Of a stretch of 64,000 nt of DNA, positions 14,879-47,950 are shown one piece after another. The number at the start of each line of letters is the position of its first letter. The stretch's first letter is position 1. This stretch comes from Agrococcus terreus (lineage in GTDB: Bacteria > Actinomycetota > Actinomycetes > Actinomycetales > Microbacteriaceae). The stretch covers positions 310,001-374,000 of the forward strand of contig NZ_BMLM01000001.1 in the NCBI RefSeq assembly GCF_014645235.1, read 5' to 3'. The translations under genes and the position numbers were made by a program. The notes beneath the pieces are model-generated. The model did not search any database. It saw only the letters and a program-made list of their open reading frames with translations, and was not told the origin of the DNA.

Positions 14879-14990
14879 GTGCACGGATCGGCCCCTCGAG
14901 AGCGCCGAAGACGGCGGTCCGGTGCACCTACGCAGCGAGAGGTGCACCGATCTGCCCCGCGCGCGGTGCCGACAGGACCGCTCGGTGCAC
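14879..14990. repeat. Pair of 49-base GTGCAC-bounded units
   Basis: Two units of exactly 49 bases (14879-14927 and 14942-14990), each beginning and ending with GTGCAC, separated by 14 bases. Both start GTGCACnGATCnGCCCC and their ends are partly complementary, so each could fold into a hairpin. The same 49-14-49 layout recurs at 47839-47950, and a single unit lies at 20885-20933. All three places are intergenic. Confidence 0.8.
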
Positions 14991-15000
14991 GTCGAGCTCG

Positions 15001-15351
15001 TCAGCCCTCCGAGTCGCCCGCCGAGCCGGCCGCCTGCGGGAACCCCGCAGGGCTCGGCTCCTTCAGCTCCACGAGGATCGCGTGGCCGTCGCTCGAGCCG
15101 ACGTTCTCGCCGACGTGCGACTCCTCGGGCACCCACTGGGCCACGCCCGACTCGAGCGTCCGGTCGGTCGTCCGCGAGCCGTGCTCCAGCCTCAGCTCGA
15201 ACGAGGAGAGCGGGATGAGCACGCTGTCGGGGTGATGGTGCGCGCTGCTCCTGGCACCGGGCGAGTCGCGGTACTCGAGCACGCGCACGCGCTCGTTCTC
15301 GAACACCACGGTGTACAGACCGGGATCGGTCGAGACGGCGTCGTCATCCAT
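15001..15351 (-). CDS. Small cupin-domain protein
   Basis: A 116-residue single-domain cupin. The metal-binding motif is seen as SSAHHHPDSVLIPL (histidines) followed by E in SFELRLEHG, and the second motif region as VPEESHVGENVGS with DGHAILVELKEP. Such small cupins bind a metal and act as isomerases, dioxygenases or sensors; no substrate can be assigned. The ATG at 15351 was chosen because the upstream extension lacks coding character. No ribosome site is visible, so a short-leader or leaderless transcript is possible. Its stop lies close to the repeat pair at 14879-14990. Confidence 0.7.
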   Translation of the reverse strand: MDDDAVSTDPGLYTVVFENERVRVLEYRDSPGARSSAHHHPDSVLIPLSSFELRLEHGSRTTDRTLESGVAQWVPEESHVGENVGSSDGHAILVELKEPSPAGFPQAAGSAGDSEG

Positions 15352-15411
15352 GCGGCGGACCGTACACCCGCGTCCTGCGAGCGTGGGGGACGGATGCTCG
15401 CCGCGCACGCG

Positions 15412-15443
15412 GACGGGCCGCCGCCCGGAGGCAGCGGCCCGTC
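15412..15443 (-). terminator. Hairpin after the small membrane protein gene
   Basis: GACGGGCCGC and its exact complement flank a 12-base loop, just past the stop of the leftward gene at 15458. Role inferred from position. Confidence 0.5.
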
Positions 15444-15457
15444 GCGGAGCAGGGGGC

Positions 15458-15778
15458 TCAGCCCTCCTGCGACTCGAGCAGCTCGTCGAGCTGCACCTGC
15501 AGGCGGTCACGGTGGTCGCGGATGAGGTCGAGGCTGCTGCCGAGGATGTCGGCGCGCGTCTGCACGTCGCCGAGCTCCGACTGCGTCTCGGCGAGCTGCG
15601 CCTGCGCGGCCGAGGCCTGCGAGAAGCCCAGCGCCGTGCCCGTCGCGCCGAGGGCGGCGACCACCACGAGCGCTACGATCCACGGCCAGCGTCGCGCGCG
15701 GGGCGCCGCGGCGGCGGTCGTCGGCGTGCCGGCCTCGGTCGCGGGGGCGGTCTGCTCGGTGCTGTGCGTCGTGGTCAT
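15458..15778 (-). CDS. Single-span membrane protein with coiled coil
   Basis: A 106-residue protein starting at ATG 15778 after GAGGAG. A Thr/Ala-rich cytoplasmic tail is followed by a basic patch (RARRWPW), one membrane span (about residues 33-53) and an outward coiled coil rich in Gln, Ala and Leu (QAQLAETQSELGDVQTRAD onwards) ending in ELLESQEG. No family is recognised. The layout resembles small actinobacterial envelope proteins; function is unknown. It is transcribed away from the olefin operon. Confidence 0.65.
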   Translation of the reverse strand: MTTTHSTEQTAPATEAGTPTTAAAAPRARRWPWIVALVVVAALGATGTALGFSQASAAQAQLAETQSELGDVQTRADILGSSLDLIRDHRDRLQVQLDELLESQEG

Positions 15779-16031
15779 CGGATGCTCCTCGGCAAGGGAC
15801 GGCGCACGCCAGCGGGCACGGCCGATCGCCGTGCGCCGGTCGCGCCCGTCGTCGGTGATGGGGGATCGGGACGCATGCTCGTGGCGCGTCCAGCAGACCA
15901 TCATCCCACGGACGTGGGGGACACGGGCGCGCCTCGGTCCGCCCGGAGCGAACCATGCCCGTCCCCCACAGGGTCGCTCGCTAGCCTGGCGGGCGTGCCG
16001 GAACCCAGAGCCGGCGCACTCTGGAGCACGC
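15779..16031. promoter_or_regulatory. Divergent upstream region of the olefin operon with an inverted repeat
   Basis: This 253-base gap holds an imperfect inverted repeat, GTGGGGGACACGGGC at 15914-15928 and GCCCGTCCCCCAC at 15957-15969 (a 2-base bulge). A TAGCCT hexamer at about 15982 could be the -10 for oleA. The repeat may be an operator; no regulator gene is adjacent. Confidence 0.4.
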
Positions 16032-17054
16032 ATGACCGGCAACGCGACCACCCGATTCAGCAACGTCTCGCTGCTGTCCGTCGCGAGCACCCTGCCCAGT
16101 CGCACGACCACGTCCGAGGACATCGAGCACCGCCTCGACGGCGCCCTCAGCCGCCTGAAGCTGCGCAAGGGCCTGCTGCGCCGCGTCGCCGGCGTCGACG
16201 CGCGGCGCAACTGGGCCGAGGGCGAGAGCGCGGATGCGGCCACGGTCCGGGCGGGCAACGAGGCGCTCGCGCAGGCGGGCGTGCAGCCGGGTGACGTCGG
16301 CCTCCTCATCAACACGAGCGTCACGCGCAAGCACCTCGAGCCGAGCGTCGCCGTGCGCCTCCACCACGAGCTCGGCCTGCCCACGAGCGCCATCAACTTC
16401 GACGTCGCCAACGCGTGCCTCGGCTTCGTGAACGGCATGAGCCTCGCGGCCGGGATGATCGAGTCGGGCCAGATCCGGTACGCGATCGTCGTCAACGGCG
16501 AGGACGCCGACGACATCCAGGTGAACACCGTCGAGCGGCTGCTGGGCGACGACATCGACCGCGACGACTTCCTCAGCGAGTTCGCCACCCTCACGCTCGG
16601 CTCCGGCTCGGCCGCCGCTGTGCTCGGCCGCGCCGACGAGCACCCCGAGGGCCACCGCATCCTCGGCGGCGTCACCCGCGCCGCCACCCAGTGGCACGAC
16701 CTCTGCGTCGGCAGCGCCGAGGGCATGTACACGAACGCGAAGGCGCTCCTCAAGGGCGGCCTCGAGCTCGTCGTCTCCGCCTGGAAGGAGGCGGCGCCGG
16801 AGTGGAAGTGGTCGGAGGTCGACCGCTACATCACGCACCAGGTCTCGTCGGTGCACACCAACGCGATCGTGAAGGCCGCGAAGCTCGACCCGGCCAAGGT
16901 GCCCACCACCTACCCGCGCTACGGCAACGTCGGCCCCGCCTCCATCCCGATCACGCTCGCCGAGGAGCAGGCCACGCTCCAGCGCGGCGACCGCGTGCTG
17001 CTCATGGGCGTCGGATCCGGCCTCAACACGGCCATGATGGAGCTCGCCTGGTGA
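16032..17054 (+). CDS. oleA: Acyl-CoA condensing thiolase OleA
   Basis: A 340-residue thiolase-fold enzyme related to FabH. The catalytic cysteine is C129 in NACLGFVNG; the His and Asn partners appear in THQVSSVHTN and GNVGPAS. OleA joins two long-chain acyl-CoAs head to head to a 2-alkyl-3-ketoacid, the first step of long-chain olefin synthesis. The following genes encode OleB-OleC and OleD, so the assignment is firm. The stop overlaps the oleBC start (GTGA). The start ATG 16032 follows CTGGAG. Confidence 0.92.
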   Translation: MTGNATTRFSNVSLLSVASTLPSRTTTSEDIEHRLDGALSRLKLRKGLLRRVAGVDARRNWAEGESADAATVRAGNEALAQAGVQPGDVGLLINTSVTRKHLEPSVAVRLHHELGLPTSAINFDVANACLGFVNGMSLAAGMIESGQIRYAIVVNGEDADDIQVNTVERLLGDDIDRDDFLSEFATLTLGSGSAAAVLGRADEHPEGHRILGGVTRAATQWHDLCVGSAEGMYTNAKALLKGGLELVVSAWKEAAPEWKWSEVDRYITHQVSSVHTNAIVKAAKLDPAKVPTTYPRYGNVGPASIPITLAEEQATLQRGDRVLLMGVGSGLNTAMMELAW

Positions 17055-19837
17055 GCTCGGCTCGCCACGACCACGCTCCCGGCAGCGGCTCCGGCCCCGC
17101 CGTCACCGCGCCGCGCACCACCACCGCGCCCGCCTCGCTCCCGCCCGAGGGCCTCCCCGGCCTCGACCCCGCGTGGAGTCGCCTCGTGCGCGTGCCTGGC
17201 CGCGGCATCGACGCCGGTGTCACGCGCGGCTGGCACTGCCTCGACACGGCCGGCGAGCTCGAGGCGCTCGGCGTCGAGCCGGCCGGCACGATCCTCGCGG
17301 TGCACGGCAACCCGACGTGGTCGTTCCTGTGGCGGCGCCTCGCCGAGGGGACGCTGGCCGCCGCCGCAGCGGGCGGACCCGCCTGGCGACTCGTCGCCGT
17401 CGACCAGCTCGAGATGGGCTTCTCGGAGCGCAGCGGCCTGCACCGCACGGTCGCGCAGCGCGTGCACGACCTCGCGGGCTTCGCGGATGCGGTGGTCGGC
17501 GACGGCCCCGTCATCACCATCGGGCACGACTGGGGCGGCGTCGTCTCGCTCGGTTGGGCCGTCGACCACGCGCCGCAGCTCGCCGGCGTCGCGCTGCTGA
17601 ACACCGCCATCCACCACCCGGCCGGCGTGCCGATCCCCGCGCCGCTGCGCCTCGCCCGCGCCCGCGGCGTGCTCGCCGCCTCCACCGTCGCGACGCCCGC
17701 GTTCCTCGAGACGACGCTCTCGCTGCCCGCCGAGCCGCTGCCGGCCGACGTGCGTGAGGCGTACCGCGCGCCCTACCGCACCGCCGCCCGGCGCGACGGC
17801 ATCGGCGGCTTCGTCGCCGACATCCCCGCCGACGCATCCCACGAGAGCCACGCCGAGCTCGAGCGCATCGCCGCCGGCGTCGCCCGGCTCGAGGCGCCCG
17901 CGCTCCTGCTGTGGGGGCCGCGCGACCCGATCTTCGGCGACCGCTACCTCGACGACCTCGTCGACCGCCTCCCGCACGCCCGCGTGCACCGCTTCGAGGG
18001 CGCGGGACACCTCGTGGCGGAGGAGCGGCTGTACGCGGATGCGGTGCTGTCGTGGGTGGGGGAGGACGTCGCTCCGGCTGCGGGTGGTCTCGAGACGCCG
18101 CGGCCTGCGGCCGAGGCTCCTCGACCAGCGGAGGGGGCGGCCGAGGCTCCTCCGCCAGCGGATGCGGAGGCGTTCCGCCCTCTCTGGCACCGCCTCGACG
18201 AGCGGGCGCTCGATGACGGCACGGCCGTCATCGACATGACGCGCACCGACGCCGGCGAGCCGCGCACCGTCTCGTGGCGGCAGCTGCATGCGCGCGTGCA
18301 GGAGCTCGCCGCCGGCCTCCACCGCCTGGGCATCCGCAGGGGCGACCGCGTCTCGCTGCTGCTCCAGCCCGGCCCCACCCTCACCGCCGTCGTCTACGCG
18401 TGCCTGCGCATCGGCGCGATCGCGGTCGTGGCGGATGCGGGGCTCGGCGTGCAGGGCCTCTCGCGCGCCGTCCGCGGCGCCCAGCCCGACGTCATCATCG
18501 GCGAGCAGAAGGGCCTCGCGGCCGCCCGCGCGCTCGGCTGGCCGGGACGCCGCTTCAGCGCCGGGCGCCTCCCGCGCGCCGCGGAGGCTGCGCTCGGCGT
18601 CGAGGCGAGCCTCGGCGAGGTCGCGCGCCTCGGCTGCGGCGAGCCCCTCCCGCCCGAGCCCGCCCCGGCCGACGAGGCGGCGGTGCTCTTCACCTCCGGC
18701 TCCACCGGCCCCGCGAAGGGCGTCGTCTACACGCACGCGCAGCTGAGCGCTCTCCGCGACGTGCTCGAGCAGCACCTGGCGATCCACGGCGGCACGGGCC
18801 TCGTCACCGGGTTCGCGCCGTTCGCGCTGCTCGGCCCCGCGCTCGGCACCCGCTCGGCGACGCCCGACATGGACGTCTCGGCGCCCCGCACGCTCACCGC
18901 ATCCGCCGTCGCCGCGGCCGTCCGGGCGTCGGACGCGCGCATCGTCTTCCTCTCGCCCGCGGCCGTCCTCAACGTGGTCGCCACCGCCGACGCGCTCACC
19001 GACGCCGACCGCGCGGCGCTCGGCCGCATCGAGACCTTCCTCTCCACCGGCGCGCCGATCGGGCTCGGGATGCTGCGCTCGATCGCCGCGCTCATGCCGG
19101 CCGCGACGCCGCGCACGCCTTACGGCATGACCGAGTGCCTGCTCGTCGCCGACATCACGCTCGCCGAGGTCGAGGCTGCGGCGACCGCGCCCGACGAGGG
19201 CGTCTGCGTCGGCCGCGCGATCGACGGCAACCGCATCCTCATCAGCGCCCTCGACGCCGACGGCCGCGCCGTGGGCGAGCCGAGCGCCGAGCCCGGCGTG
19301 CTCGGCGAGGTCGTCATCGCGGCACCGCACCTGAAGCGCGGCTACGACCGGCTCTGGCTCACCGACCGCGAGGCCGCGCGCGGCACCGAGGCGCTCGACG
19401 CCGGGAGCCCCGAGCACCCGATCCGCTGGCACCGCACGGGCGACGTCGGCCACCTCGACGCCGACGGGCGCCTCTGGATCGAGGGCCGCCTGCCGCACGT
19501 GCTCGTCACCGCCGACGGCCCGCTCGCGCCGGTCGGCACCGAGCAGGACGTCGAGGCGGTGGATGCGGTGCGCCGTGCCGCCGTCGTCGGCGTCGGCCCG
19601 CACGGCCTCCGCCAGGCGGTCGCCGTGGTCGAGTCGCTCCCGGCCGCCCGCCGGCCCGGCCTCGCCGACGCGGGCCTCGCGGCCGCCGTGCGCGCGAGCA
19701 CCGCGCAGCCGCTCGCGGCCGTGCTCGTCGTGCCGAGCCTCCCGACCGACGTGCGCCACAACTCCAAGATCGACCGCGTGCGCCTCTCGGCCTGGGCCGA
19801 GCGGACCCTCGCCGGCCGCACGCCGGGCGCGCCGTGA
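17051..19837 (+). CDS. oleBC: OleB-OleC fusion: beta-lactone decarboxylase and beta-lactone synthetase
   Basis: A 928-residue fusion. Residues about 35-340 are an alpha/beta hydrolase of the haloalkane-dehalogenase type with Asp nucleophile in GHDWGG (158-163) and His in GAGH (about 317), i.e. OleB, which decarboxylates a beta-lactone to the olefin. Residues about 372-928 are an AMP-ligase fold with FTSGSTGPAKG (about 547-557), TPYGMTEC and the HRTGDVGHLD hinge, i.e. OleC, which makes the beta-lactone. Such fusions are known in actinobacteria. The linker (346-371, Ala/Pro/Glu-rich) coincides with a dispersed repeat seen elsewhere in the window. GTG start overlaps oleA; stop overlaps oleD. Confidence 0.92.
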   Translation: MSSARHDHAPGSGSGPAVTAPRTTTAPASLPPEGLPGLDPAWSRLVRVPGRGIDAGVTRGWHCLDTAGELEALGVEPAGTILAVHGNPTWSFLWRRLAEGTLAAAAAGGPAWRLVAVDQLEMGFSERSGLHRTVAQRVHDLAGFADAVVGDGPVITIGHDWGGVVSLGWAVDHAPQLAGVALLNTAIHHPAGVPIPAPLRLARARGVLAASTVATPAFLETTLSLPAEPLPADVREAYRAPYRTAARRDGIGGFVADIPADASHESHAELERIAAGVARLEAPALLLWGPRDPIFGDRYLDDLVDRLPHARVHRFEGAGHLVAEERLYADAVLSWVGEDVAPAAGGLETPRPAAEAPRPAEGAAEAPPPADAEAFRPLWHRLDERALDDGTAVIDMTRTDAGEPRTVSWRQLHARVQELAAGLHRLGIRRGDRVSLLLQPGPTLTAVVYACLRIGAIAVVADAGLGVQGLSRAVRGAQPDVIIGEQKGLAAARALGWPGRRFSAGRLPRAAEAALGVEASLGEVARLGCGEPLPPEPAPADEAAVLFTSGSTGPAKGVVYTHAQLSALRDVLEQHLAIHGGTGLVTGFAPFALLGPALGTRSATPDMDVSAPRTLTASAVAAAVRASDARIVFLSPAAVLNVVATADALTDADRAALGRIETFLSTGAPIGLGMLRSIAALMPAATPRTPYGMTECLLVADITLAEVEAAATAPDEGVCVGRAIDGNRILISALDADGRAVGEPSAEPGVLGEVVIAAPHLKRGYDRLWLTDREAARGTEALDAGSPEHPIRWHRTGDVGHLDADGRLWIEGRLPHVLVTADGPLAPVGTEQDVEAVDAVRRAAVVGVGPHGLRQAVAVVESLPAARRPGLADAGLAAAVRASTAQPLAAVLVVPSLPTDVRHNSKIDRVRLSAWAERTLAGRTPGAP
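18086..18162 (+). repeat. Intergenic-type repeat inside oleBC, forming the inter-domain linker
   Basis: GGTCTCGAGAC at 18086-18096 and GCTCCTCGACCAGCGG at 18116-18131 reproduce the ends of the elements at 55516-55563 and 57051-57096. A further 24-base copy of the right part follows at 18139-18162, offset by 30 bases (10 codons) from 18109-18132 with two differences. All is read in frame as the linker between OleB and OleC. Confidence 0.75.
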
Positions 19838-20820
19838 TCGCGCTCGTCACCGGCGCCTCCGGCTTCCTCGGCCGTGCCGTCGCCGCGCAGCTCGTCGCCG
19901 AGGGGCACGAGGTGCGCACGCTGCAGCGCCGCCCCTCGGGTGTCGCGGGCGCGACCGACGTGCTCGGCTCGATCACCGATCCGGATGCCGTGGCCCGCGC
20001 CGTCGCCGGGGATGGGTCGGCACCCGTCGAGGGCGTCGTGCACCTCGCCGCGAAGGTGTCGCTCACGGGCGACCCCGCCGACTTCCGCGCCGTGAACGTC
20101 GAGGGCACGCGCGCGCTGCTCGACGCCGCCGAGAGCGCGGGCGCCGCCCGCTTCGTGCAGGTCTCGTCGCCCTCGGTCGCGCACGCGGGCGCCTCGCTGA
20201 CGGGCGTCGGCGCCGAGCCCGCCTCGCCGCAGCACGCGCGCGGCGACTACGCGCGCACGAAGGCCGAGGCCGAGCGCATCGCCCTCGAGCGCGACTCCGA
20301 CCGCCTCGCCGTAGTCGCGATCCGCCCCCACATCGTCTGGGGGCCGGGCGACGAGCAGCTCATCGAGCGCGTCGTCGACCGCGCCCGCCGCGGCCGGCTG
20401 CCGCTGCTGAACGGCGGCACGGCCCTCATCGACTCCACCTACGTCGACAACGCGGCGACCGCGATCGCGGCCGCGCTGCGGCGGGCGGATGCGGCGCACG
20501 GCCGCGCGCTCGTGGTGACCAACGGCGAGCCCCGCCCCGTCGGCGACCTGCTCGCGGGCATCTGCACGGCGGCGGGGGTGAGGCCCCCGCGCATCAGCGT
20601 GCCCGCCGCGCTCGGCCGAGCGGTCGGCTCGCTCGTGGAGCGCGCGTGGGCGATCCGCCCCGGTGCCGACGAGCCGCCGATGACGCGGTTCCTCGCCGAG
20701 CAGCTCTCGACCGCGCACTGGTTCGACCAGCGCGAGACGCGTGAGGCGCTCGACTGGGCGCCGACGGTCACGATCGACGAGGGCCTCGCGCGCCTTGCCG
20801 CGCACTACCGCGCGCGCTGA
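19834..20820 (+). CDS. oleD: NAD(P)H-dependent 2-alkyl-3-ketoacid reductase OleD
   Basis: A 328-residue extended SDR-fold protein: VTGASGFLGRAV at the N-terminus binds the nucleotide, DYARTKAEAE gives the catalytic Tyr and Lys, and IRPHIVWGPGD is typical of the 3-beta-HSD/NSDHL-like branch. OleD reduces the OleA product to the 2-alkyl-3-hydroxyacid that OleC cyclises. GTG start at 19834 overlaps the oleBC stop. With OleA and OleBC the set is complete, so this strain should make long-chain internal olefins from fatty acyl-CoA. Confidence 0.9.
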   Translation: MIALVTGASGFLGRAVAAQLVAEGHEVRTLQRRPSGVAGATDVLGSITDPDAVARAVAGDGSAPVEGVVHLAAKVSLTGDPADFRAVNVEGTRALLDAAESAGAARFVQVSSPSVAHAGASLTGVGAEPASPQHARGDYARTKAEAERIALERDSDRLAVVAIRPHIVWGPGDEQLIERVVDRARRGRLPLLNGGTALIDSTYVDNAATAIAAALRRADAAHGRALVVTNGEPRPVGDLLAGICTAAGVRPPRISVPAALGRAVGSLVERAWAIRPGADEPPMTRFLAEQLSTAHWFDQRETREALDWAPTVTIDEGLARLAAHYRAR

Positions 20821-20881
20821 GCGCGCCGCCCGCTGCGGCGATCGCTGCCCGCCGCGGTTCGCCGCCATGCCGGCGCGACGG

Positions 20882-20936
20882 TTGGTGCACGCCGTGGTCG
20901 GTCTGCACGACCGAGAACGACCACGGCGTGCACCAA
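20882..20936. repeat. Perfect 19-bp inverted repeat containing a 49-base GTGCAC unit
   Basis: Arms TTGGTGCACGCCGTGGTCG (20882-20900) and the exact complement (20918-20936) flank 17 bases that hold a further small stem (CGGTC/GACCG). From GTGCAC to GTGCAC it measures 49 bases (20885-20933), as in the pairs at 14879 and 47839. It could also end the oleABCD message; the stop of oleD is 61 bases away. Confidence 0.8.
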
Positions 20937-21027
20937 GTCTCATCGGGCGCTGCGCCGATTGGTGCCCGGCGCGTCGCACGGAGCGGGCGGGCGCGGCCGT
21001 GCGGGGCGCGCGGTCGCCCGCGGCGCG

Positions 21028-21381
21028 TCAGTCGCGCTCGAGCGCGGGCACCGACTCGTGCACGGGCGCGGTGCCGAGCATGTGCTCGCCCTGGTGCATC
21101 GCGATCGTCACGAGCTCGCTCGCGTGGTCGTCCGCGAGCCGGTAGAAGACGCGCGTGCCGACCTGGCGGGCGATGACCATGCGGGCGAGCCGCATCTTCG
21201 CGAGGTGCTGCGAGACGGCCGGCGTGGGGCGCCGGGCGACGGCGGCGAGGTCGCCGACCGACATCTCGCCCTCGCGGAGCGCGAGGAGGATCCGCAGCCG
21301 GGTCGCATCGGCGAGCATCGAGAACACCTCGACCGCGAGCTCGACCGGCTCGTCGTCGACGTACGACATATCTGCATCCAT
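21028..21381 (-). CDS. ArsR/SmtB-family metal-sensing repressor (zinc type)
   Basis: A 117-residue winged-helix repressor starting at ATG 21381. The recognition helix is in TPAVSQHLAKMRLAR. The last helix reads DDHASELVTIAMHQGEH and carries Asp, His, His and Glu/His in nearly the spacing of the alpha-5 zinc sites of SmtB and CzrA. It is divergent from a CDF cation exporter, and a palindrome overlaps the exporter's promoter, so it most likely represses zinc (or cobalt) efflux until metal binds. Its C-terminus lies near the repeat at 20882. Confidence 0.85.
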   Translation of the reverse strand: MDADMSYVDDEPVELAVEVFSMLADATRLRILLALREGEMSVGDLAAVARRPTPAVSQHLAKMRLARMVIARQVGTRVFYRLADDHASELVTIAMHQGEHMLGTAPVHESVPALERD

Positions 21382-21449
21382 GCGCACACGATGACACAGC
21401 GCGCCAGCACTGGCAAGGCGCGGCGTCCGCCAGAGACGAGCGTTGCCGC

Positions 21450-21486
21450 ATTGCAGATTGTCAACATTCTGCAATCACGCTACGGT
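21450..21486 (+). promoter_or_regulatory. ArsR operator and leaderless promoter of the CDF exporter
   Basis: ATTGCAGA (21450-21457) and TCTGCAAT (21468-21475) form a perfect inverted repeat with 10 bases between. Overlapping it is a promoter, TTGTCA (21458-21463), 17 bases, TACGGT (21481-21486). The ATG at 21493 is 6 bases past the -10, so the transcript should be leaderless and the repressor would block polymerase directly. Confidence 0.75.
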
Positions 21487-21492
21487 GGGCCC

Positions 21493-22551
21493 ATGAGCGC
21501 CACCCACGAGCACAGCGACCACGGTCACCACGACCACGGCCCGGGCGACCACGGCCACGACCACGACCACGACCACGGCCACGCCTTCGACGAGGCGCAC
21601 CCGCCGCGTCCGGCCTCCGCGAGCGGCGGCCACCACAGCCACAGTCACGGCCTCGAGGGCCACACGACGGCCACCGGCAAGCACCGCAAGAAGCTCGTCA
21701 TCGTGCTCTGCATCACCGCGAGCATCTTCGTCGTGCAGCTCATCGGCGCCTTCGTCGCCAACTCGCTCGCGCTGCTCGCCGACGCCGGCCACATGCTCAC
21801 CGACGCGATGGGCGTCACGATCGCGCTCATCGCGAGCATCCTCGCGGCGCTCCCGGCCACGTCGAAGCGCACCTTCGGCCTCATGCGCGTCGAGGTGCTC
21901 GCCGCCATGGCGAACGGCATCATCCTCGGCGTCATCTGCGTCGTGATCGTCATCGAGGGCATCCGCCGCCTCGGCACCGAGGTCGAGGTCGAGGCCGGCC
22001 CCATGCTCATCGCGGCCATCGCCGGCGCGCTCGCGAACCTCGTCTCGCTGCTCATCCTGCAGTCGGGCCAGAAGGAGAGCCTCAACGTGCGCGGCGCCTA
22101 CCTCGAGGTGCTCGGCGACCTGCTCGGCTCGGTCGCCGTCATCATCGCCGGCTTCATCATCCTGTTCACCGGGTGGATGGTCGTCGACCAGATCGCCTCG
22201 TTCGCGATCGCGGCCCTCATCGCACCGCGCGCCTACAGCCTCCTCAAGGACGTGCTGCGGGTGCTGCTCGAAGCCACGCCGCAGGACGTCGACCTCGACG
22301 CCACGCGCGAGCACATGCTCTCGGTGAAGGGCGTCGTCGACGTGCACGACCTCCACGCCTGGACCATCACCTCCGGCGTCAACGCCCTCTCGGCGCACGT
22401 CGTCGTCGACGACGCGATCGACGAGCGCGACTACCACGACGTGCTCGACGAGCTCCACGCGTGCATCGGCGAGCACTTCGACACCGAGCACTGCACGCTG
22501 CAGATCGAGCCGGCGAAGCACGCGCCGCACGAGCACGCGCTCCACGCGTGA
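21493..22551 (+). CDS. Cation diffusion facilitator (zinc/cobalt exporter)
   Basis: A 352-residue CDF protein. The first 55 residues are very His/Asp-rich (repeated HDHDH stretches), a likely metal-catching tail. Six membrane spans follow; the transport site is visible as DAGHMLTD in span 2 and EVLGDLLGS in span 5, where the usual His is Glu. The C-terminal domain contains VHDLHAW and a His-rich end (HAPHEHALHA). It should export Zn(II) or Co(II) in exchange for protons under control of the divergent ArsR repressor. No ribosome site precedes the ATG, in line with leaderless transcription. Confidence 0.9.
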   Translation: MSATHEHSDHGHHDHGPGDHGHDHDHDHGHAFDEAHPPRPASASGGHHSHSHGLEGHTTATGKHRKKLVIVLCITASIFVVQLIGAFVANSLALLADAGHMLTDAMGVTIALIASILAALPATSKRTFGLMRVEVLAAMANGIILGVICVVIVIEGIRRLGTEVEVEAGPMLIAAIAGALANLVSLLILQSGQKESLNVRGAYLEVLGDLLGSVAVIIAGFIILFTGWMVVDQIASFAIAALIAPRAYSLLKDVLRVLLEATPQDVDLDATREHMLSVKGVVDVHDLHAWTITSGVNALSAHVVVDDAIDERDYHDVLDELHACIGEHFDTEHCTLQIEPAKHAPHEHALHA

Positions 22552-22606
22552 CGCGTCGGCCGTGACGCCCGACGTCGTCCGGTCATAGCGCCCGCACATC
22601 GTCGTG

Positions 22607-22617: not shown

Positions 22618-22639
22618 AGGAAGATAGGCAGGGGGAGCC

Positions 22640-23777: not shown

Positions 23778-23790
23778 GGTCGCCGCGCGC

Positions 23791-39397: not shown

Positions 39398-39439
39398 ACT
39401 CGCCGCCGCGGCGCGGCGGCACGACGAGAGGAGGGGCGC

Positions 39440-39928: not shown

Positions 39929-40662
39929 CCGACGCCGGCCTCGCCGTCCTGCTCACGGGGGCCTCGAGCGGCATCGGCGACGCCGTCGCCGAGCGCTTCC
40001 GCGCGGACGGCGCTCGCCTCGTCCTCACCGGGCGGCGCGAGGAGCCGCCCGCGTCGCTGCGAGCGGGGGAGCGCTACGTCCCGGGCGACCTCGGGGACCC
40101 CGCGTTCGTCGAGCGGCTGGTCGCCGAGGCGGTCGAGGCGGTCGGGCCCCTCGACACCGTCGTGCTGTGCCACGGCCTGCAGGGCGACGGCGCGATCGAG
40201 GCCATGCCGCTCGAGCGGGCGGCGGCGCTCCTCGACGCCAACGTGCTCAGCGCGTTCTCGGTCCTGCAGCGCGTCGTGCCCGCCATGCACGAGCGCGGCG
40301 GGCAGGTCGTGCTCGTGAGCTCCCGGCTCGGCATCGTCGGCATCGCCGGCCAGGTCATGTACACGGCGGCGAAGGGCGGGCTGACCATGCTGGGCAAGGG
40401 TGCCGCGGTCGAGCTCGCGCCGCGCGGCATCCGCGTGAACGTCGCCGCTCCGGGGCTCACCGAGACGCCCACGATCGCCGCCGCGTTCGACGCGAAGGAC
40501 GACCCGGTCGCCTACCGCGCCCAGCGTGCGGCGACGATCCCGATGCGCCGCCTCGCGCGGCCGGAGGAGGTCGCGGAGGCGATCTTCTTCCTGGGATCGC
40601 CTGCCTCGTCGTACGTCACGGGCGTCGTGCTGCCGATCGACGGCGGCTACACCGCCGCCTGA
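39925..40662 (+). CDS. Short-chain dehydrogenase/reductase (FabG-like)
   Basis: A 245-residue classical SDR: cofactor motif GASSGIGDAVAERF, LCHGLQ in place of NNAG, catalytic Ser in VSSRLG, Tyr and Lys in MYTAAKGG, and PGLTETPT after the beta-strand. It probably oxidises or reduces a hydroxyl/keto intermediate of the same pathway. ATG overlaps the RidA stop. It is the last gene of the rightward operon; the regulator gene faces it with 5 bases between. Confidence 0.85.
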   Translation: MTDAGLAVLLTGASSGIGDAVAERFRADGARLVLTGRREEPPASLRAGERYVPGDLGDPAFVERLVAEAVEAVGPLDTVVLCHGLQGDGAIEAMPLERAAALLDANVLSAFSVLQRVVPAMHERGGQVVLVSSRLGIVGIAGQVMYTAAKGGLTMLGKGAAVELAPRGIRVNVAAPGLTETPTIAAAFDAKDDPVAYRAQRAATIPMRRLARPEEVAEAIFFLGSPASSYVTGVVLPIDGGYTAA

Positions 40663-40667
40663 GGTCG

Positions 40668-41396
40668 CTACGGCTGGCTCGCGACGGCGTCGCCCTCGGG
40701 CCGGCCGTGCCGCAGGTCTCCGTCGGCGTCGTGGCCGTGGAGGCGGTGGTCGTCCACCGAGAGGTGCTCGTGGAGCGCCCGGTGCAGCTCCTCCATGGTC
40801 CCCGAGCGGACGAGCTCGATGAGCTCGCGGTGGCCGGGCACGACGTTCGATCGCTCGGGGTAGGCGCCGGGGAAGTGCGTGAGGCAGATGAGTGCCTCGG
40901 TCGCGAGGGTGGCGTAGGCGCGGTCGAGCCGCGAGTTGCCGGCATCGGCGACGAGCGCGGTGTGGAACTCCAGGTCGATCCGGCCCAGCCGTGGCCAGTC
41001 CCCGGCGTCGAACGCAGCCTGCATGCGGTCGACGATCGCCGTCAGCCGGTCTGCCGCAGCCTCGCGTCGATCGGCGTCGCGGCCCGTCACGATCTCGCCG
41101 GCCGCGCACTCGATCACCTCGCGCGCCGCGAACACCTCCGCGACGTCCCGCGCATCGAGCTCCTGCACGAACACGCCGCGGTTGGGCCGCGCGAGGAGCA
41201 GGCCCTCCTGCACGAGCCGGTGCAGGGCCTCCCGCACGGGGCCGCGCGACACGTTGAGCCGGCTCGCGACGAGCGCCTCGTTGACCTGGTCGCCGGGGGC
41301 GAACGCGCCGTCGATGATGCTCTCGCGGAGCTGGTCGGCGATCACCACCGCCGTCGGCCTGCTGTTGATGGCCGACAGTGCCTCGACTCCTCGCAT
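40668..41396 (-). CDS. GntR-family regulator with FCD domain (paralogue B)
   Basis: A 242-residue paralogue of the regulator at 22640-23341, sharing SRGPVREALHRLVQEGLL, RPNRGVFV and REVIECAA segments. FCD ligand residues are seen in RIDLEFHTALV, GHRELIELV and LHEHLSV. The gene is convergent with the catabolic operon and divergent from the cupin, whose promoter carries a GATTGTTGACAATC palindrome. It is therefore the best candidate to control both the cupin and, through the identical site at 29443, the ABC operon. The start ATG 41396 leaves a leader with a GGTCCCC/GGGGACC stem at 41417-41435. Confidence 0.83.
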   Translation of the reverse strand: MRGVEALSAINSRPTAVVIADQLRESIIDGAFAPGDQVNEALVASRLNVSRGPVREALHRLVQEGLLLARPNRGVFVQELDARDVAEVFAAREVIECAAGEIVTGRDADRREAAADRLTAIVDRMQAAFDAGDWPRLGRIDLEFHTALVADAGNSRLDRAYATLATEALICLTHFPGAYPERSNVVPGHRELIELVRSGTMEELHRALHEHLSVDDHRLHGHDADGDLRHGRPEGDAVASQP

Positions 41397-41444
41397 GCGC
41401 GCTCCCCTCGTGACGCGGTCCCCGATCGGGGGACCGTTCCTCGC

Positions 41445-41456
41445 ATCGTAGACAAT
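41445..41456. promoter_or_regulatory. Candidate operator upstream of GntR paralogue B
   Basis: On the minus strand ATTGTCTACGAT, an imperfect ATTGT-NN-ACAAT palindrome with the ATTGTCTAC stretch also found upstream of paralogue A at 22607. Suggests autoregulation or cross-regulation. Confidence 0.45.
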
Positions 41457-41507
41457 CCACACGGACAACCGGTGAGGCGCGGCTCGACTTCCCGGATCCG
41501 TCGATGC

Positions 41508-41543
41508 GGATTGTTGACAATCTGCACGTGCGGGCGGGACGAT
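41508..41543 (+). promoter_or_regulatory. Operator-promoter of the cupin gene
   Basis: The same 19 bases as at 29443 (GGATTGTTGACAATCTGCA) include a perfect 6-2-6 palindrome and a TTGACA -35 (41514-41519). GACGAT (41538-41543) at 18 bases spacing is a possible -10. The cupin ATG is at 41591. Confidence 0.7.
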
Positions 41544-41590
41544 GGAGGGGAGCGGGCGCGACGCGGCGCCCCAGCACCGAGAGGATCCGC

Positions 41591-41971
41591 ATGCCCAACG
41601 CCATCGTCGTCGCCGACGCGACGCAGGCCGACGCCGGCGAGCACCGGCCCAAGGCCACCGCCGAGCAGCCCGGCCAGACCGAGTCCTCCCGGACCGTGTG
41701 GGAGTCCGGCGAGGGCATCCGCTCGGGCGTGTGGGAGGTGACCCCCGGGTCGTTCCGCAGCACCCGCCCCGAGTACCACGAGATGTGCCAGATCGTCTCG
41801 GGCACCGCGACCATCACCGAGGACGACGGCAGCTCGTTCGAGATCGGCCCCGGCTCGCTCTTCGTCACGCCCGAGGGCTGGACCGGGCACTGGCAGGTGC
41901 ACGAGACGCTCCGCAAGGTCTGGGTGACGATCCCGTTCTCGGCGCTCGCCGCGCCGGTGCGCTCGGCCTGA
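41591..41971 (+). CDS. Cupin-domain protein (Cupin_3 type)
   Basis: A 126-residue cupin from ATG 41591 behind GAGAGG. The core reads ESGEGIRSGVWEVTPGSFR, EYHEMCQIVSGTATI and PGSLFVTPEGWTGHW, typical of the DUF861/ethanolamine-utilisation-like cupins that often accompany amine oxidase and aldehyde dehydrogenase genes. The role is probably catalytic or sensing in the same catabolic pathway. It shares its operator sequence with the ABC operon at 29535 and diverges from the GntR paralogue B. Confidence 0.78.
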   Translation: MPNAIVVADATQADAGEHRPKATAEQPGQTESSRTVWESGEGIRSGVWEVTPGSFRSTRPEYHEMCQIVSGTATITEDDGSSFEIGPGSLFVTPEGWTGHWQVHETLRKVWVTIPFSALAAPVRSA

Positions 41972-42001
41972 GATCCCGCATCCGCCGAGCGGCGGACACG
42001 A

Positions 42002-42035
42002 AGGAGGCGCCGCCCCGCTCGGGGCGGCGCCTCCT
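42002..42035. terminator. Bidirectional 15-bp hairpin between convergent genes
   Basis: AGGAGGCGCCGCCCC and its exact complement with loop GCTC, between the cupin stop and the YHS gene stop. The strongest terminator-like stem in the window. Confidence 0.75.
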
Positions 42036-42052
42036 GCTGTGCGGCGTCGCGA

Positions 42053-42265
42053 CTACGCGGCCGCCAGGTAGCGCTCGGGGTCGGCGTCGAAGAGCGGGCC
42101 GCAGGCGGCGCAGCAGAGGTAGTAGGTCTGGCCCTCGTGCTCGCGGACGAGGCCCTGCGAGGCCGCCGTCTCCTTGTCGACGAAGTTGCCGCGCATCACG
42201 GGGCACTCGGCGGTGGCCTCCTCCGGCGTGGTCGCGGCGGCGTGGTGGTTGTGCGCTTCGCACAT
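42053..42265 (-). CDS. Small YHS-domain metal-binding protein
   Basis: A 70-residue protein with a His-rich start (HNHHAA) and a YHS/TRASH-like core: CPVMRG near residue 21 and YYLCCAACGPLFDADPERY near the end. YHS domains bind copper or other soft metals. It is the last gene of the copper operon, 52 bases after copA, and is probably a cytosolic copper carrier or sensor. Confidence 0.75.
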   Translation of the reverse strand: MCEAHNHHAAATTPEEATAECPVMRGNFVDKETAASQGLVREHEGQTYYLCCAACGPLFDADPERYLAAA

Positions 42266-42317
42266 GGTGGTGGTCCTCTCGGATGGGGGGTGAGGGATCG
42301 GGCGCCGGTCCGGATCG

Positions 42318-44621
<2,304 letters not shown>

Positions 44622-44655
44622 GTGCGGTTCCTTCGCGGTTCGGGCGCGGGACGCG

Positions 44656-45639
44656 TCAGTGGTCGTCGTCGTGGCCGTCGTCGGCCGGGGACTCGCTCGG
44701 CGAGCCCTCGGTCGCCGGCGCCGACTGGGCGGGGGCTGCGGTGCCGTCGGTGGTCACGACGAACGACGCGGTCTGGACCTCGCCGTCGACCTGGAAGTCG
44801 AAGTAGAGGAGGTAGCGGCCGGGCGTGGGCGCCTCGGTGGCGAACTCGACCGTGGGGCCGGACTCCTGGCCGGCCTCGGGCTCGGCGCCCTCGGGGTGCA
44901 CGTGGAGGTAGGCGAGGTCGCCGTCGCGGAGCGCGACGAGGTGGCCGAAGGCGCCCAGGTAGGGCTCGAGCTCCGTGACGGACTCGCCGTCGCGGCTCAC
45001 CTCGACGGTGAGGGTCGAGCTGCCGCCGGCGACGAGGTCGCCCTCGAGCCGCACGTCGAAGTCGCCGGCGCGAGACTCCCGCACCTCGTCGCCGAGCGCG
45101 ACGGCCTCCACCTCGCCCGGCACCGAGATGCTGCGGGTGAGGGTGATGCCGTCCTCCTGCGCCGCGGGCGTGAAGTCGGCGAACACGCGGTAGGTGCCAG
45201 CCTCCTCCCACGTCCACGGGATCGACCAGGTGCCCTCGGCGTCGAGCTCGGGGTGCACGTGGCGGAACTCGCTGCCGTCCTCGCGGACGACGATGAGGTG
45301 GAGGTCCTTCTCGTGCTCCTCGGTGTACTCCGTCACCGGCTCGCCCTCGGGGTCGAGCACCTGGAACGAGAGCTCGCCGTCCTCGTCGGTCGCGGCGGGG
45401 GCCGCGACGGGGCTGAGGAGGTAGCCGTCGGCCTCGAGCGAGAGGCCGGGGAGCGCGGCGCTCGCGGCCTCGCCCTCGGGGGCGGTCTCGGCGTGGCCGC
45501 CGTGGCCGCCCTGCTCCTCGGCGGCCGCGCGCGCCTCGACGGCGCTCTCGGGCACCACGGCGCCCGCGACGACGAAGGCCGCGCCGAACGCGGCGAGCAG
45601 GCCGAGGCCGTACAGGGAGAGTCGGGCGGGAGCGTTCAT
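44656..45639 (-). CDS. Secreted or membrane-anchored copper-operon protein
   Basis: A 327-residue protein with an N-terminal hydrophobic anchor (about residues 7-30) and His-rich patches just outside (GGHGGHAE) and at the C-terminus (DDGHDDDH). Two similar beta-rich halves each contain a histidine motif: [10 protein letters not shown] near 125 and [11 protein letters not shown] near 245. Proteins of this type occur beside copA in actinobacteria and are thought to hold metal outside the membrane; the exact role is unknown. Start at 45639 after GAGGATC. Confidence 0.72.
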
Positions 45640-45714
45640 CGGATCCTCGTCGTTCGTCGCGTCGGTTCGGTGCGGTGCGGGGTCGGTGCGGTCGGCCGCG
45701 GGGGCCGGGCCGGG

Positions 45715-45927
45715 TCAGGCGGGCTGGGCCTCGTAGCCGGCCTCCTCGACGGCCGCGAGCACCGCGGCGTCGTCGACGGGGGAGTCGGCCGTGGTGACGG
45801 CGAGGTGGCCGTCGGCGGCGCGGACGTCGATCGAGACGACGCCGTCGATCTGCGAGACCTCGCCGCGGATCGCGCCCTCGCAGTGCGAGCACGTCATGCC
45901 GGTCACCTGGTACTCGGTGGTTGCCAT
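45715..45927 (-). CDS. copZ: Copper chaperone CopZ
   Basis: A 70-residue heavy-metal-associated domain with GMTCSHC (10-16). It carries Cu(I) to CopA. First gene of the leftward copper operon, start at 45927 behind AGGAGG, with a CsoR-type operator in its promoter. The 75-base gap to the next gene is G/C-rich with repeated TCGGTGCGG and no clear stem. Confidence 0.9.
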   Translation of the reverse strand: MATTEYQVTGMTCSHCEGAIRGEVSQIDGVVSIDVRAADGHLAVTTADSPVDDAAVLAAVEEAGYEAQPA

Positions 45928-45983
45928 CGCTGCCTCCTGGTCGCTGGGGCTCCCGCCGTCCGCGGGTGCCTGCTACGGTCGAA

Positions 45984-46011
45984 ACTATACCCCTGGGGGG
46001 TATGCACGCAA
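45984..46011 (-). promoter_or_regulatory. Copper promoter with CsoR-type operator
   Basis: On the minus strand TTGCGT (46006-46011), 16 bases, TATAGT (45984-45989). The spacer is the near-symmetrical ATACCCCTGGGGGGTAT (45987-46003 on the plus strand), matching the known CsoR consensus of TATACCCnnnGGGTATA type. CsoR releases DNA on binding Cu(I). No csoR gene lies in the window. Confidence 0.8.
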
Positions 46012-46031
46012 CACCGATCGAGGAGGCCGGG

Positions 46032-47234
46032 ATGGCATCGGAGCAGGACGGCATCGTGATCGTGGGCGCGGGCGCCGCGGGCCACGCGGCCGCGGCGGGG
46101 CTGCGCCGCCACGGCTGGACGGGCCGCATCCGGCTCGTCCACGGCGAGGACGGCCCGCCCATCAACCGCACCCTCGTCGACACCGGCCTCCTGCCGGGGC
46201 TGCTCACGGTCGGGCAGATCGCGCTGCCGCCGCTCGACGACGTCGAGCTCGTGCATGCGCGCGCCATCGCGCTCGATCCGGAGAGCCGCTCGGTGGCGCT
46301 CTCGAACGGCCAGGTGCTCACCGGCGAGGCGATCGTGCTCGCGACCGGCAGCGCGCCGCGCGCGCTCGACCCGTCGGTCGAGGTCGACGCCGAGGTGCCG
46401 CTCCACGTGCTCCACACCGCCGACGACGCCGCATCGCTCCGCGGCGCCGTCGCGGCGCTCGACGCGCCCCGCATCGCGGTGCTCGGCGCCGGCTTCATCG
46501 GGGCGGAGGTCGCGAGCCTCTGGGCACCCGGCGCCCGCGTGACGCTCGTGGGCCGCTCGGCGCTGCCGCTGCGCGACGCCGTCGGCGAGGGGATCGCGGC
46601 GCGGCTCGCGGCGCTGCACGCCGAGCGGGTCGACGCCCGCCTCGGGTCGCGGGTGCTCGCTGTGCGCGCGACGCCCGGCGGCGCGGCGCCCGTGCGCGTC
46701 GAGCTCGCGGGCGAGGACGGCGCGAGCGACGTGGTCGACGCCGACCTCGTGGTCGTCGCGGTCGGCGCCGCGCCCGCGGCCGCGTGGGCGGGCTTCCCCG
46801 GCGCGGTCCCGACCGACGACCGCCTCCGCGTGCCCGGCATGCCGGGCGTCTACGCCGCCGGCGGCGCGGCGGCGCCCGAGGTCGATGGCGCCCCGCTGCG
46901 CGTCGACCACTGGGATGCGGCGGCCGCACAGGGCGCGCACGCGGCGCAGGCCGTGCTGCACGACCTCGGCCTCGCCGCCGATCCGGGCCCGTGGCGGCCC
47001 ATCACGGGCTTCACGCTCATGGCCCACGGCGCCGTCGTCTCGGGCCGCGGCGCCTGGGCGCCGGGTGCCGAGACGACGACCGAGGCGGCCGGCGACGGCC
47101 TGCTCGCCTTGGTGCGCGACGCATCCGGCACCCTCGTGGGCGTCGCCGGCTGGAACGCCGGGCGCGCGGTCGCCGAGGCCGCCGCCCGCATCGGGGCGGC
47201 CGCGGCGCCGGTGGCTTCGGGGAAGCCGGCCTAG
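46032..47234 (+). CDS. FAD/NAD(P)-dependent pyridine nucleotide-disulphide-family oxidoreductase
   Basis: A 400-residue two-dinucleotide-domain flavoprotein: GAGAAGHAAAAG (12-23) for FAD, ATGSAPR, GAGFIGAEVA for NAD(P)H and VYAAGGAAAPEV near 290. No redox-active CxxxxC pair is seen, so it resembles ferredoxin/rubredoxin reductases rather than disulphide reductases. ATG 46032 was chosen for its GAGGAGG site; an in-frame ATG at 46002 lies inside the CsoR operator. Divergent from copZ across that operator, it is probably copper-induced; the electron acceptor is unknown. Confidence 0.82.
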   Translation: MASEQDGIVIVGAGAAGHAAAAGLRRHGWTGRIRLVHGEDGPPINRTLVDTGLLPGLLTVGQIALPPLDDVELVHARAIALDPESRSVALSNGQVLTGEAIVLATGSAPRALDPSVEVDAEVPLHVLHTADDAASLRGAVAALDAPRIAVLGAGFIGAEVASLWAPGARVTLVGRSALPLRDAVGEGIAARLAALHAERVDARLGSRVLAVRATPGGAAPVRVELAGEDGASDVVDADLVVVAVGAAPAAAWAGFPGAVPTDDRLRVPGMPGVYAAGGAAAPEVDGAPLRVDHWDAAAAQGAHAAQAVLHDLGLAADPGPWRPITGFTLMAHGAVVSGRGAWAPGAETTTEAAGDGLLALVRDASGTLVGVAGWNAGRAVAEAAARIGAAAAPVASGKPA

Positions 47235-47773
47235 AGGAACTCGAGCGGGTCGAACTCGTCGATGGGGATGATCCGCACGCGCGGCAGGCGGCTGTTGAAC
47301 GCCGCGACGTCGTACTCGAGGTCGAAGAGCTCGACGCCCTCGACGTTCCGCAGCCCGCCCGCCACGAACTCCGCGAACCCGACGACGCCCACGCGGCGCT
47401 CGCCCTCGGCCAGCTGCTCGAGCTGCGGCGCGAAGTCGCCGTCGTGGCTGACGAGCATGACGTCGGCGTCGCGCTCGAGCAGCGCCTCGGCCGTGCGCTG
47501 GATGGCGATGTCGACGACCTTGCCCTCGCCGCTCAGCGGCACCGGGCGGTAGCCGATGGCGATGAGCGCCTGCACGAACGACGTGGGCAGCTCGCCCGGC
47601 ACCGCGAGGAAGAACAGGCCCTGCACGGGCTGCTCCCACGCGCGCTCGGCGAAGGCGAGCAGCTTGTTCCAGCGCGGCCGCTCCTCGGGCTGCGGTCGTC
47701 GGTTGAGCAGCGAGACCCCGAGGGTCGCGTCGATGTTCTCGCCGTCGACGAGCAGGTACGTGGTGCGGGCCAT
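47231..47773 (-). CDS. NYN-domain protein (LabA/DUF88-like putative ribonuclease)
   Basis: A 180-residue PIN-like NYN protein. Acidic residues of the predicted metal site are in LVDGENID at the N-terminus, GKVVDIAIQR in the middle and LVSHDGDFAPQL. Such proteins are predicted RNases. Its stop overlaps the stop of the facing reductase gene (CTAG). It stands alone on this strand, with the paired 49-base repeats directly upstream. Confidence 0.8.
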   Translation of the reverse strand: MARTTYLLVDGENIDATLGVSLLNRRPQPEERPRWNKLLAFAERAWEQPVQGLFFLAVPGELPTSFVQALIAIGYRPVPLSGEGKVVDIAIQRTAEALLERDADVMLVSHDGDFAPQLEQLAEGERRVGVVGFAEFVAGGLRNVEGVELFDLEYDVAAFNSRLPRVRIIPIDEFDPLEFL

Positions 47774-47838
47774 GGGCCGATCCTAGGTGCGGCCGGGCGT
47801 CGGGCCGCCGGGCCGCGCGGCTCGCGCCGGATGCCGAG

Positions 47839-47950
47839 GTGCACCGATGCGCCCCTCCGGCGCCGCTCGAGGGGCGCTTCGGTGCACGGGCTGCGGGGCA
47901 CGTGCACCGATCGGCTCCGACGGGCGCCGCCGCGGGGCCGATCCGTGCAC
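47839..47950. repeat. Second pair of 49-base GTGCAC-bounded units
   Basis: Units 47839-47887 and 47902-47950, each 49 bases with GTGCAC at both ends, spaced by 14 bases exactly as at 14879-14990. The first unit forms a long hairpin: GTGCACCGA pairs with TCGGTGCAC and GCGCCCCTC with GAGGGGCGC. Both start GTGCACCGAT. Confidence 0.85.

Follow-up and report, generated by a model that had tools for sequence, protein, structure and literature searches.

Dispersed palindromic repeats flanking genes for MTES_1575/DUF559-like nucleases in Agrococcus and other actinobacteria

The closest described systems are the REP/BIME elements and the REPtrons, in which REPs are combined with a RAYT tyrosine transposase; two accounts (PMC3733652, PMC2817692) describe dispersed intergenic palindromes, located past stop codons and between convergent genes, arranged in pairs and clusters, with several families per genome and an enzyme gene flanked by its own repeats, and give REPs as hairpins of 20-40 bp. 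The elements reported here share all these traits of arrangement, including the position past gene ends or between convergent genes by which REPs and REPINs are defined, but are at least 49 bp long with long free centres, and the gene linked to them encodes a Vsr/DUF559-like nuclease instead of a RAYT. Phased direct repeats of about 20 bp are found in plasmid iterons, while in paired TALEN/FokI-type sites inverted half-sites enclose a free spacer whose length is fixed. The arrays described below resemble both but, unlike either, are dispersed at gene ends and lie beside the gene of a nuclease of another family. This family is presumably akin to the EDxHD (Vsr-like) homing endonucleases, which are alike in their selfish-looking, free-standing genes; homing endonucleases have one interrupted site, whereas here many solo sites exist per genome and full palindromes usually occur on both sides of the gene. 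The DUF559/MTES_1575 proteins are a further related group; no account of palindromes or palindrome arrays around DUF559/AbiEi genes was found in the literature search.

The window is a stretch of 64,000 bp from Agrococcus terreus (contig NZ_BMLM01000001.1, positions 310,001 to 374,000). The original prediction had listed five intergenic 49 bp units bounded by GTGCAC, four of them in two pairs with a 49-14-49 layout; all five units and both layouts were recovered, and the intergenic position was confirmed by using a simple gene caller. Four units belong to one family, named A. Units w1 (14879-14927) and w2 (14942-14990) are separated by a 14 bp spacer (14928-14941), as are w3 (47839-47887) and w4 (47902-47950; spacer 47888-47901). 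Unit w1 consists of a half-site, a random centre of 15 bp and an inverted half-site. The distance between the end of w2 and the nearest stop codon, that of a minus-strand gene (15001-15351), is 10 bp; for w4 it is 11 bp, to the stop codon of an AHSA1-domain gene (47962-48435, minus strand). The fifth element (20885-20933), a 49 bp palindrome with arms GTGCACGCSGTGGTCG, is a member of a different family, type B, and lies in the convergent gap between genes 19834-20820 (plus strand) and 21028-21369 (minus strand). For each window element, the nearest stop codon is 10 to 64 bp away.

The genome (2,830,661 bp) contains 12 matches to GTGCAC-N37-GTGCAC, against one for the reversed-pattern control. 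When the gap was left free between 22 and 52, a range of 31 possible lengths, 36 matches were obtained, 12 of which have a gap of exactly 37, the single length at which the family A peak sits; the control produced 12 matches summed over all gaps. The excess of 49-base spacing on which the prediction depended is therefore present. Family A comprises 13 clear units at 8 places. Two of these hold a single unit; the other six hold two or three, with some units degenerate, and the period there is exactly 63 bp. The spacer measures 14 bp in all seven adjacent pairs. Type B has one other copy, at C1:1018727, both copies being single. A sister family, class 2, was found in 8 of 24 genomes of the genus; when lengths of 38-68 were allowed, 70 of its 76 matches measured 51-52 bp. 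Many palindrome families coexist within a single genome. A pattern scan of the genomes of 84,980 species, a collection which may not include this genome or its near relatives, detected nine stretches, in Streptomyces, Hymenobacter and others, none of which resembles the family.

Family A arms are 80% identical among units, while the identity of the unit centre is 35%, against 34% expected, so the middle 15 bp amount to random sequence. All 13 exact half-sites are inside units, no isolated one being found; when one mismatch was allowed, 22 of 34 matches fell outside units (control 9). The original prediction had named covariance between arms as a test and selection on a folded RNA or DNA shape as one reading. 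Arms of the same unit are 81.9% alike and arms re-paired between units 81.1%; a further re-pairing test gave p 0.33 for family A and p 0.15 for class 2a, and the arms of the 42 class 2c units agree, at two variable positions, in 24 cases versus 26 expected and in 33 versus 31 (p 0.16). Arm covariation is thus absent for family A, and a selected fold is unsupported, since arms are no more alike than re-paired ones in any of these three sets. When classes 2a and 2b were mixed, arms within a unit were more alike than re-paired ones (p 0.002), which probably stems from pooling the sub-classes. Apart from this mixed set, the behavior of the arms in A and 2c differs from that of REP arms, for which selection for complementary mutations is deduced (PMC2817692). 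Fixed length, lack of arm covariation and a random centre together point to two inverted, independently conserved half-sites of about 17 bp, with no maintained hairpin.

Half-sites also form arrays. Those of class 2c gave 137 matches versus 4 in the control, with a direct spacer of 15 bp in 38 of 47 cases and an inverted spacer of 17 or 18 in 39 of 41. Of the iterons that flank the L087 nuclease gene, the 12 on one side are direct and the 14 on the opposite side inverted, with 20 bp at every step; the L243 array has a period of 31. Overall, half-sites are repeated within arrays about every two or three helical turns (20, 31, 31.5 or 32 bp), and 15-18 bp of free sequence separate inverted ones. 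Since only one pair among 42 units has similar centres, as judged by eye, recent copies are lacking and active copy-paste is not seen; ongoing spread by copying of whole units was rejected because unit interiors are unrelated. A CRISPR or CRISPR-like array was also discarded on the orientation of the repeats, which alternates in family A.

Element density is 1.78 per kb in convergent, 0.54 in tandem and 0.18 in divergent gaps, and 0.025 in coding sequences, in agreement with the predicted intergenic bias. For class 2c, 21 of 41 placements are convergent, 15 tandem and 5 divergent; in the 13 tandem gaps that contain an asymmetric class 2c array, the array follows the direction of the genes in 6 and opposes it in 7. 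Occupation of orthologous gaps is variable. No A half-sites occur beside the NYN gene adjoining w3/w4 in any of the 21 loci of relatives where the gene is called, the gene going uncalled in one more, and no type B element was found beside the epimerase gene (19834-20820) in 17 loci. Palindromes of other families occupy the same gaps in genomes G021, G008 and G023 (NYN) and in G002 and G011 (type B). Presence and absence were also seen at five orthologous gaps. In two orthologous array pairs, L230/L234 and L204/L223, the spacers have diverged but half-sites and spacing are retained, apart from one centre that measures 17 versus 18.

By inspection, each of the nine complete MTES_1575/DUF559-like nuclease genes in 2.15 Mb of sampled sequence has same-family palindromes or phased arrays on either flank; one of these genes, L008:8504-9439, is located between two family A arrays. 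Only 5 of 1,871 genes have same-family palindromes on both sides, and 4 of these 5 encode such nucleases (hypergeometric 1e-9); excluding L175, first noticed through this screen itself, the result is 3 of 4 (2e-7). Flanks share at least two 11-mers, a threshold set after looking at the data, in 8 of 8 complete nuclease genes versus 55 of 1,768 others (7 of 7 without L175, Fisher 4.5e-11), and at least four in 5 of 8 versus 19 of 1,768. Nuclease genes L186 and L198, truncated at the end of the sampled stretch, were left out of the counts, and L073, a false match of the first nuclease profile, was dropped. Across 11 genes, similarity among the nucleases is correlated with that among their hand-picked half-sites (Mantel r 0.56, p 0.0003). 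Outside the genus, flanking arrays accompany 7 of 9 homologue regions, those of L247 and L249 being assessed by eye; none was found in L244 and L246, the latter a 32% match. No cognate nuclease was found for type B and class 2a. That related palindromes border genes for an unexpected type of DNA-cutting protein, within the genus as well as in distant actinobacteria, suggests a repeat system linked to a nuclease and undescribed in the literature searched.

The linked genes match DUF559/MTES_1575 models partially (Pfam, PADLOC, record annotation), and family assignment by public models is weak. In 11 proteins, S209, E212, R216, D243 and E254 are invariant and H260 and D269 nearly so, while Pfam matches are mostly below cut-off: PF18741 is matched at E 0.01 or better by 7 proteins, L175 alone passing the cut-off, and DUF559 by 3, two of them over it. 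No Pfam model matches L075, L093, L163 and L235, which were placed only from custom profiles. Four of the 11 proteins match AbiEi models: L075, L093 and L163 in their N-terminal residues, and L087 weakly in a middle stretch. A PADLOC homing-endonuclease model matches the C-terminus of L175, and 3hrl is a PDB relative. Some DUF559/MTES_1575 records are annotated as "type IV toxin-antitoxin system AbiEi family antitoxin domain-containing protein"; the AbiEi-AbiEii arrangement of AbiE toxin-antitoxin systems is lacking at L008, whose called neighbours, fumarase-like and prolyl oligopeptidase-like, include no AbiEii nucleotidyltransferase toxin partner.

The palindromes are probably recognition sites of cognate nucleases, encoded by genes with same-family arrays on either flank, in an arrangement analogous to REP-RAYT pairs. 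Each enzyme would have a Vsr-like C-terminal domain and, in some members, an AbiEi-like N-terminal region; the N-terminal part would bind one half-site, two subunits would occupy the inverted pair, and the nuclease domains may meet, and cut, over the free spacer, so that spacer length, and not its sequence, would be selected. Solo palindromes at gene ends might be dispersed targets or remnant sites, comparable to the REPs that surround RAYT genes, although the enzyme is unrelated. More tentatively, and with rather less assurance than for site recognition, these could be selfish or immune AbiEi-DUF559 nucleases spread across the actinobacteria, dimeric on inverted half-sites across a free spacer, as a natural equivalent of the paired TALEN/FokI geometry, shifting in specificity between lineages and seeding solo sites at gene ends: REP-like, with a non-HUH enzyme. 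The binding-site pair and the REP-like element of the original prediction are supported in outline (fixed geometry, gene-end location, lineage-specific dispersed families, linked enzyme gene), while its REP-type transposase is absent. Double-strand breaks at many sites would harm the genome, a consideration against reading the palindromes as nuclease sites.

The same sites and protein might operate without mobility, the sites serving as decoys or parking places, or as a chromosome-wide regulon, which hold or titrate the nuclease while host selection keeps half-sites and spacing. Conserved half-sites, saturated spacers, the absence of recent copies and the two orthologous array pairs fit this account, which nevertheless seems unlikely, as presence and absence at five orthologous gaps suggest gain and loss, w3/w4 and the type B unit are missing at the same genes in relatives, and families are lineage-specific. 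It is improbable that a nucleoid- or supercoiling-related host protein owns the sites and that nuclease genes just insert beside arrays: the convergent, gene-end bias and the helical phasing would be explained, but not the occurrence of same-family arrays on either flank of a nuclease gene, the correspondence of half-site to nuclease sequence, or the many families in each genome.

Still less probable is a role as bidirectional transcription terminators or as hairpins at mRNA 3' ends, whether spread by duplication or by convergence. Units do sit directly past stop codons, and four single units fold strongly (z -5.4 to -7.1), but the loops are long, random and of fixed length, the arms do not covary, asymmetric class 2c arrays show no preferred direction in tandem gaps, neither of the window's two family A pairs has an intrinsic terminator (GC stem, short loop, T run), and no Rfam family matches in 8 sources apart from a single tRNA. 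Classical REP/REPIN or MITE copies, moved by a RAYT or DDE transposase, are hardly tenable. For all that units are dispersed, intergenic and paired, copy interiors are unrelated, no consistent target duplication is visible by eye, exact half-sites occur in units only, and no GTAG/CGTC tag is common to the flanks of the 13 A units; the linked REP-associated transposase of the original prediction is lacking, PF01797 (Y1_Tnp) being absent from this genome and present in 5 of 14 control genomes.

If the palindromes are cognate sites, MTES_1575/DUF559 proteins, often "hypothetical" and in some cases AbiEi-like at the N-terminus, gain a likely DNA target; as this can be read from the gene flanks, nuclease specificity becomes testable gene by gene. 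The partnership of REP-like repeats with an enzyme may also have arisen with a second, unrelated enzyme. CGTC REPs have no transposase dedicated to them (PMC3733652), and the present system may bear on how palindromic repeats spread without a RAYT. Related nucleases with differing half-sites might also be instructive on how DNA specificity changes.

Two related elements of the window were absent from the original prediction: a class 2a unit of 52 bp, GTGGTCA...TGACCAC, at 60484-60535, and a class 2b array of GAGTGGTCRC half-sites at 48877-48971, with start-to-start steps of 20, 25, 20 and 20 bp and one inversion. By eye, the latter is of the same family as the arrays which flank the nuclease gene L044:2884-3753 on both sides.

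The five 49-bp units bounded by GTGCAC, at 14879-14927, 14942-14990, 20885-20933, 47839-47887 and 47902-47950, were confirmed by a position check, as was the 49-14-49 arrangement of the two pairs. That this fixed length recurs elsewhere was shown by a scan of the genome (2.83 Mb, 8 contigs) for GTGCAC-N37-GTGCAC, which returned 12 matches, versus 1 for the reversed pattern. When the gap was left free between 22 and 52, 36 GTGCAC pairs were found in the same genome, 12 of them at gap 37; the control gave 12 over all gaps. Ten of the 12 matches carry TGCACCGAWSSGCCCC arms and form family A, while the other two, the unit at 20885-20933 among them, constitute a separate family, type B. An additional clear A unit was detected at position 702344 of contig C2, by a covariance model built from 12 units. 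Family A is found at 8 places in the genome: six contain two or three units, some degenerate, with an exact 63-bp period, and two are single. Unit length is constant across the genome, in a search that permitted variation.

The arms of 13 A units are 80% identical, reaching 90% over the outer nine positions, while identity within the central 15 bp is 35%, versus 34% expected from composition. Selection on a folded shape had been proposed, with covariation between arms as its mark, but the two arms of one unit proved no more alike than arms of different units. Exact A half-sites are located inside such units in 13 out of 13 cases genome-wide; with one mismatch, 12 of 34 are inside and 22 outside, the reversed control giving 9. 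Given the random centre, the constant length, the lack of arm covariation and the confinement of exact half-sites to units, the symmetry of family A comes from a pair of half-sites, each conserved independently, and not from a maintained hairpin; this is what protein binding to DNA at a fixed spacing would lead one to expect.

Scans of sampled stretches from this genome and its relatives revealed several more palindrome families, a number of which keep to a single length. A sister family, class 2 (GTGGTCA...TGACCAC), has 13 copies in the A. terreus genome; 11 measure 51 bp and the other two 52 bp. In 24 same-genus genomes 76 matches were found, distributed over 13 genomes; 70 of them, from 8 genomes, measure 51 or 52 bp within a permitted range of 38-68, and the remaining six 41, 41, 47, 53, 55 and 61 bp. 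Inner arms vary between species despite the 51/52-bp length. Sub-class 2c was examined in 42 units from four genomes, excluding three unlike units of G009 and one 55-bp match of G001; the genomes outside these four carry other class 2 sub-classes. Its centre is random in sequence and 17 bp (11 units) or 18 bp (31 units) long, and arm agreement at two variable positions was close to expectation (24 vs 26, 33 vs 31). Within-unit arm similarity is in excess for class 2 when sub-classes are mixed (p 0.002), and not in sub-class 2a alone (p 0.15). Around 41 of the class 2c sites, in 40 fetched loci, 137 half-sites were detected with up to 3 mismatches, versus 4 in the control. Direct neighbours are spaced by 15 bp in 38/47 cases and inverted ones by 17 or 18 bp in 39/41, the typical layout being two direct half-sites and an inverted one. 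A class 2b array, with 20-bp steps and one inversion, lies at 48877-48971 in the window. A 63-bp family, CTCAACG...CGTTGAG, is present in several species (loci L078, L089, L092, L093, L175, L035), and in G006 it flanks the nuclease gene L175:11151-11999. A-like arrays of G005 (L031, L029, L030) have a period of about 73 bp and near-identical neighbours, as if produced by recent tandem duplication.

A Pfam search of the genes neighbouring A units detected, between two A arrays, a MTES_1575-type nuclease gene (L008:8504-9439, corresponding to C2:249003-249938), with a below-cut-off score of 26.6 bits. Profiles seeded from it identified, in 106 loci (2.15 Mb), nine complete homologues and two cut by stretch ends. 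One of the nine, L175, was first spotted through its flanks and afterwards joined to the profile, and passes both Pfam cut-offs itself. By inspection, all nine complete genes are flanked on both sides by same-family palindromes or iterons. In a mechanical screen only 5 of 1,871 genes showed same-family palindromes on both flanks, and four of the five encode these nucleases (p 1e-9; three of four, p 2e-7, minus L175); the fifth, in G021, is peptidase-like by eye. At least two 11-mers are common to both flanks for 8/8 nuclease genes vs 55/1,768 others (Fisher 1.6e-12; 7/7, 4.5e-11, minus L175), where L008 was left out as ascertained and the threshold of two was chosen after looking; at least four are shared by 5/8 and 19/1,768, respectively. 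Targeted loci showed arrays on both sides in L025 (G007) and L203 (G006), and on one side, followed by the contig end, in L235 (G009). The clearest array, at L087:4620-6270, surrounds a nuclease gene: 12 direct iterons precede it on the left and 14 inverted iterons follow on the right, with 20-bp steps throughout. Nuclease similarity tracks half-site similarity (Mantel r 0.56, p 0.0003, on half-sites picked by the author). Nuclease elements of two palindrome families adjoin the purK 3' end in L163, L203 and L235 (G002, G006, G009), a possible insertion hot spot in three species.

PF18741 matched 7 of 11 aligned proteins with E values of 0.01 or lower, L175 alone exceeding the cut-off, and DUF559 matched three (L175 and L087 above cut-off, L044 below). 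No Pfam model matched L075, L093, L163 and L235, which rest on in-house profiles. AbiEi models matched L075, L093 and L163 in their N-terminal part, whereas in L087 the match was weak and fell in a middle stretch; an NCBIfam search gave nothing convincing. Among solved structures the closest chain is the endonuclease-like protein 3hrl (E 1.4e-4). The conserved residues, Ser, Glu, Arg, Asp, Glu, His and Asp, would fit a Vsr-like nuclease.

Outside the genus, plasmid records contain homologues at nine distinct places, seven of which have same-family arrays on both sides: Arthrobacter L241, L242 and L243, Tsukamurella L245, L247 and L249 (one strain, the latter two assessed by eye) and Collinsella L248, whose two flanks carry four and two palindromes. 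L243 resembles class 2c in layout: three direct half-sites, 31 bp apart, are accompanied by an inverted one. Flanking arrays were not found at L244 (Tsukamurella) and L246 (Nonomuraea, a 32% match).

In 1.26 Mb sampled from five genomes, with genes called by a simple in-house program, the density of palindromes with a length of 45 bp or more and a score of 17 or more is 1.78 per kb in convergent gaps, 0.54 in tandem gaps and 0.18 in divergent gaps, compared with 0.025 within coding sequence. Of the 42 in tandem gaps, 34 are closer to the stop codon. In five gaps an array present in a relative is missing from the orthologous gap. The NYN gene was called in 21 relative loci, and none of these has units corresponding to 47839-47887 and 47902-47950 upstream of it; type B units are likewise missing from 17 relative loci; five of these orthologous gaps hold palindromes of different families. 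The NYN upstream gap is occupied by TGCGTTTCGCAGGCGATC-family palindromes in L122, L123 and L124 (G021, G008, G023). In a divergent orthologous gap (L228 of G001, L036 of A. terreus) arm sequences differ and the 51-bp geometry is common, and in the orthologous arrays L230/L234 spacers have diverged while half-sites and spacing are kept. In G017, the A unit lying between the photolyase gene and the gene convergent to it retains 32/34 arm and 9/15 central bases.

The fixed length and free sequence of the spacer, the inverted half-sites, the phased arrays and the flanking gene together suggest that the linked nuclease would bind inverted half-sites as a dimer, its nuclease domains meeting over the spacer; the flanking gene probably combines a DNA-binding and a nuclease part. 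The palindromes would be recognition sites of their cognate nuclease, the main rival being that they act as decoy sites. Dispersal by ongoing copying is unsupported, because unit interiors are unrelated. The layout of repeats plus enzyme gene is reminiscent of a REPtron, but the tests that define the latter, for the tag, the REP-associated tyrosine transposase and a covarying hairpin, all gave negative results here. Palindromes around these nuclease genes were not described in the literature records searched, a set leaving most subscription papers outside.

Other genes are also flanked by repeats. The DUF222-HNH gene L045:15499-16848 has 20 direct 11-mers in common between its flanks, and an insertion sequence of G016 (L183:7490-8665), composed of a gene with a rve integrase domain and flanking inverted repeats, likewise ranked high in the flank test. 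In the window, at 55493-57293, inverted repeats of the CTGGTCGAG/GTCTCGAGAC type are located on both sides of a MFS transporter gene (55681-56955); they represent another family, not linked here to a nuclease.
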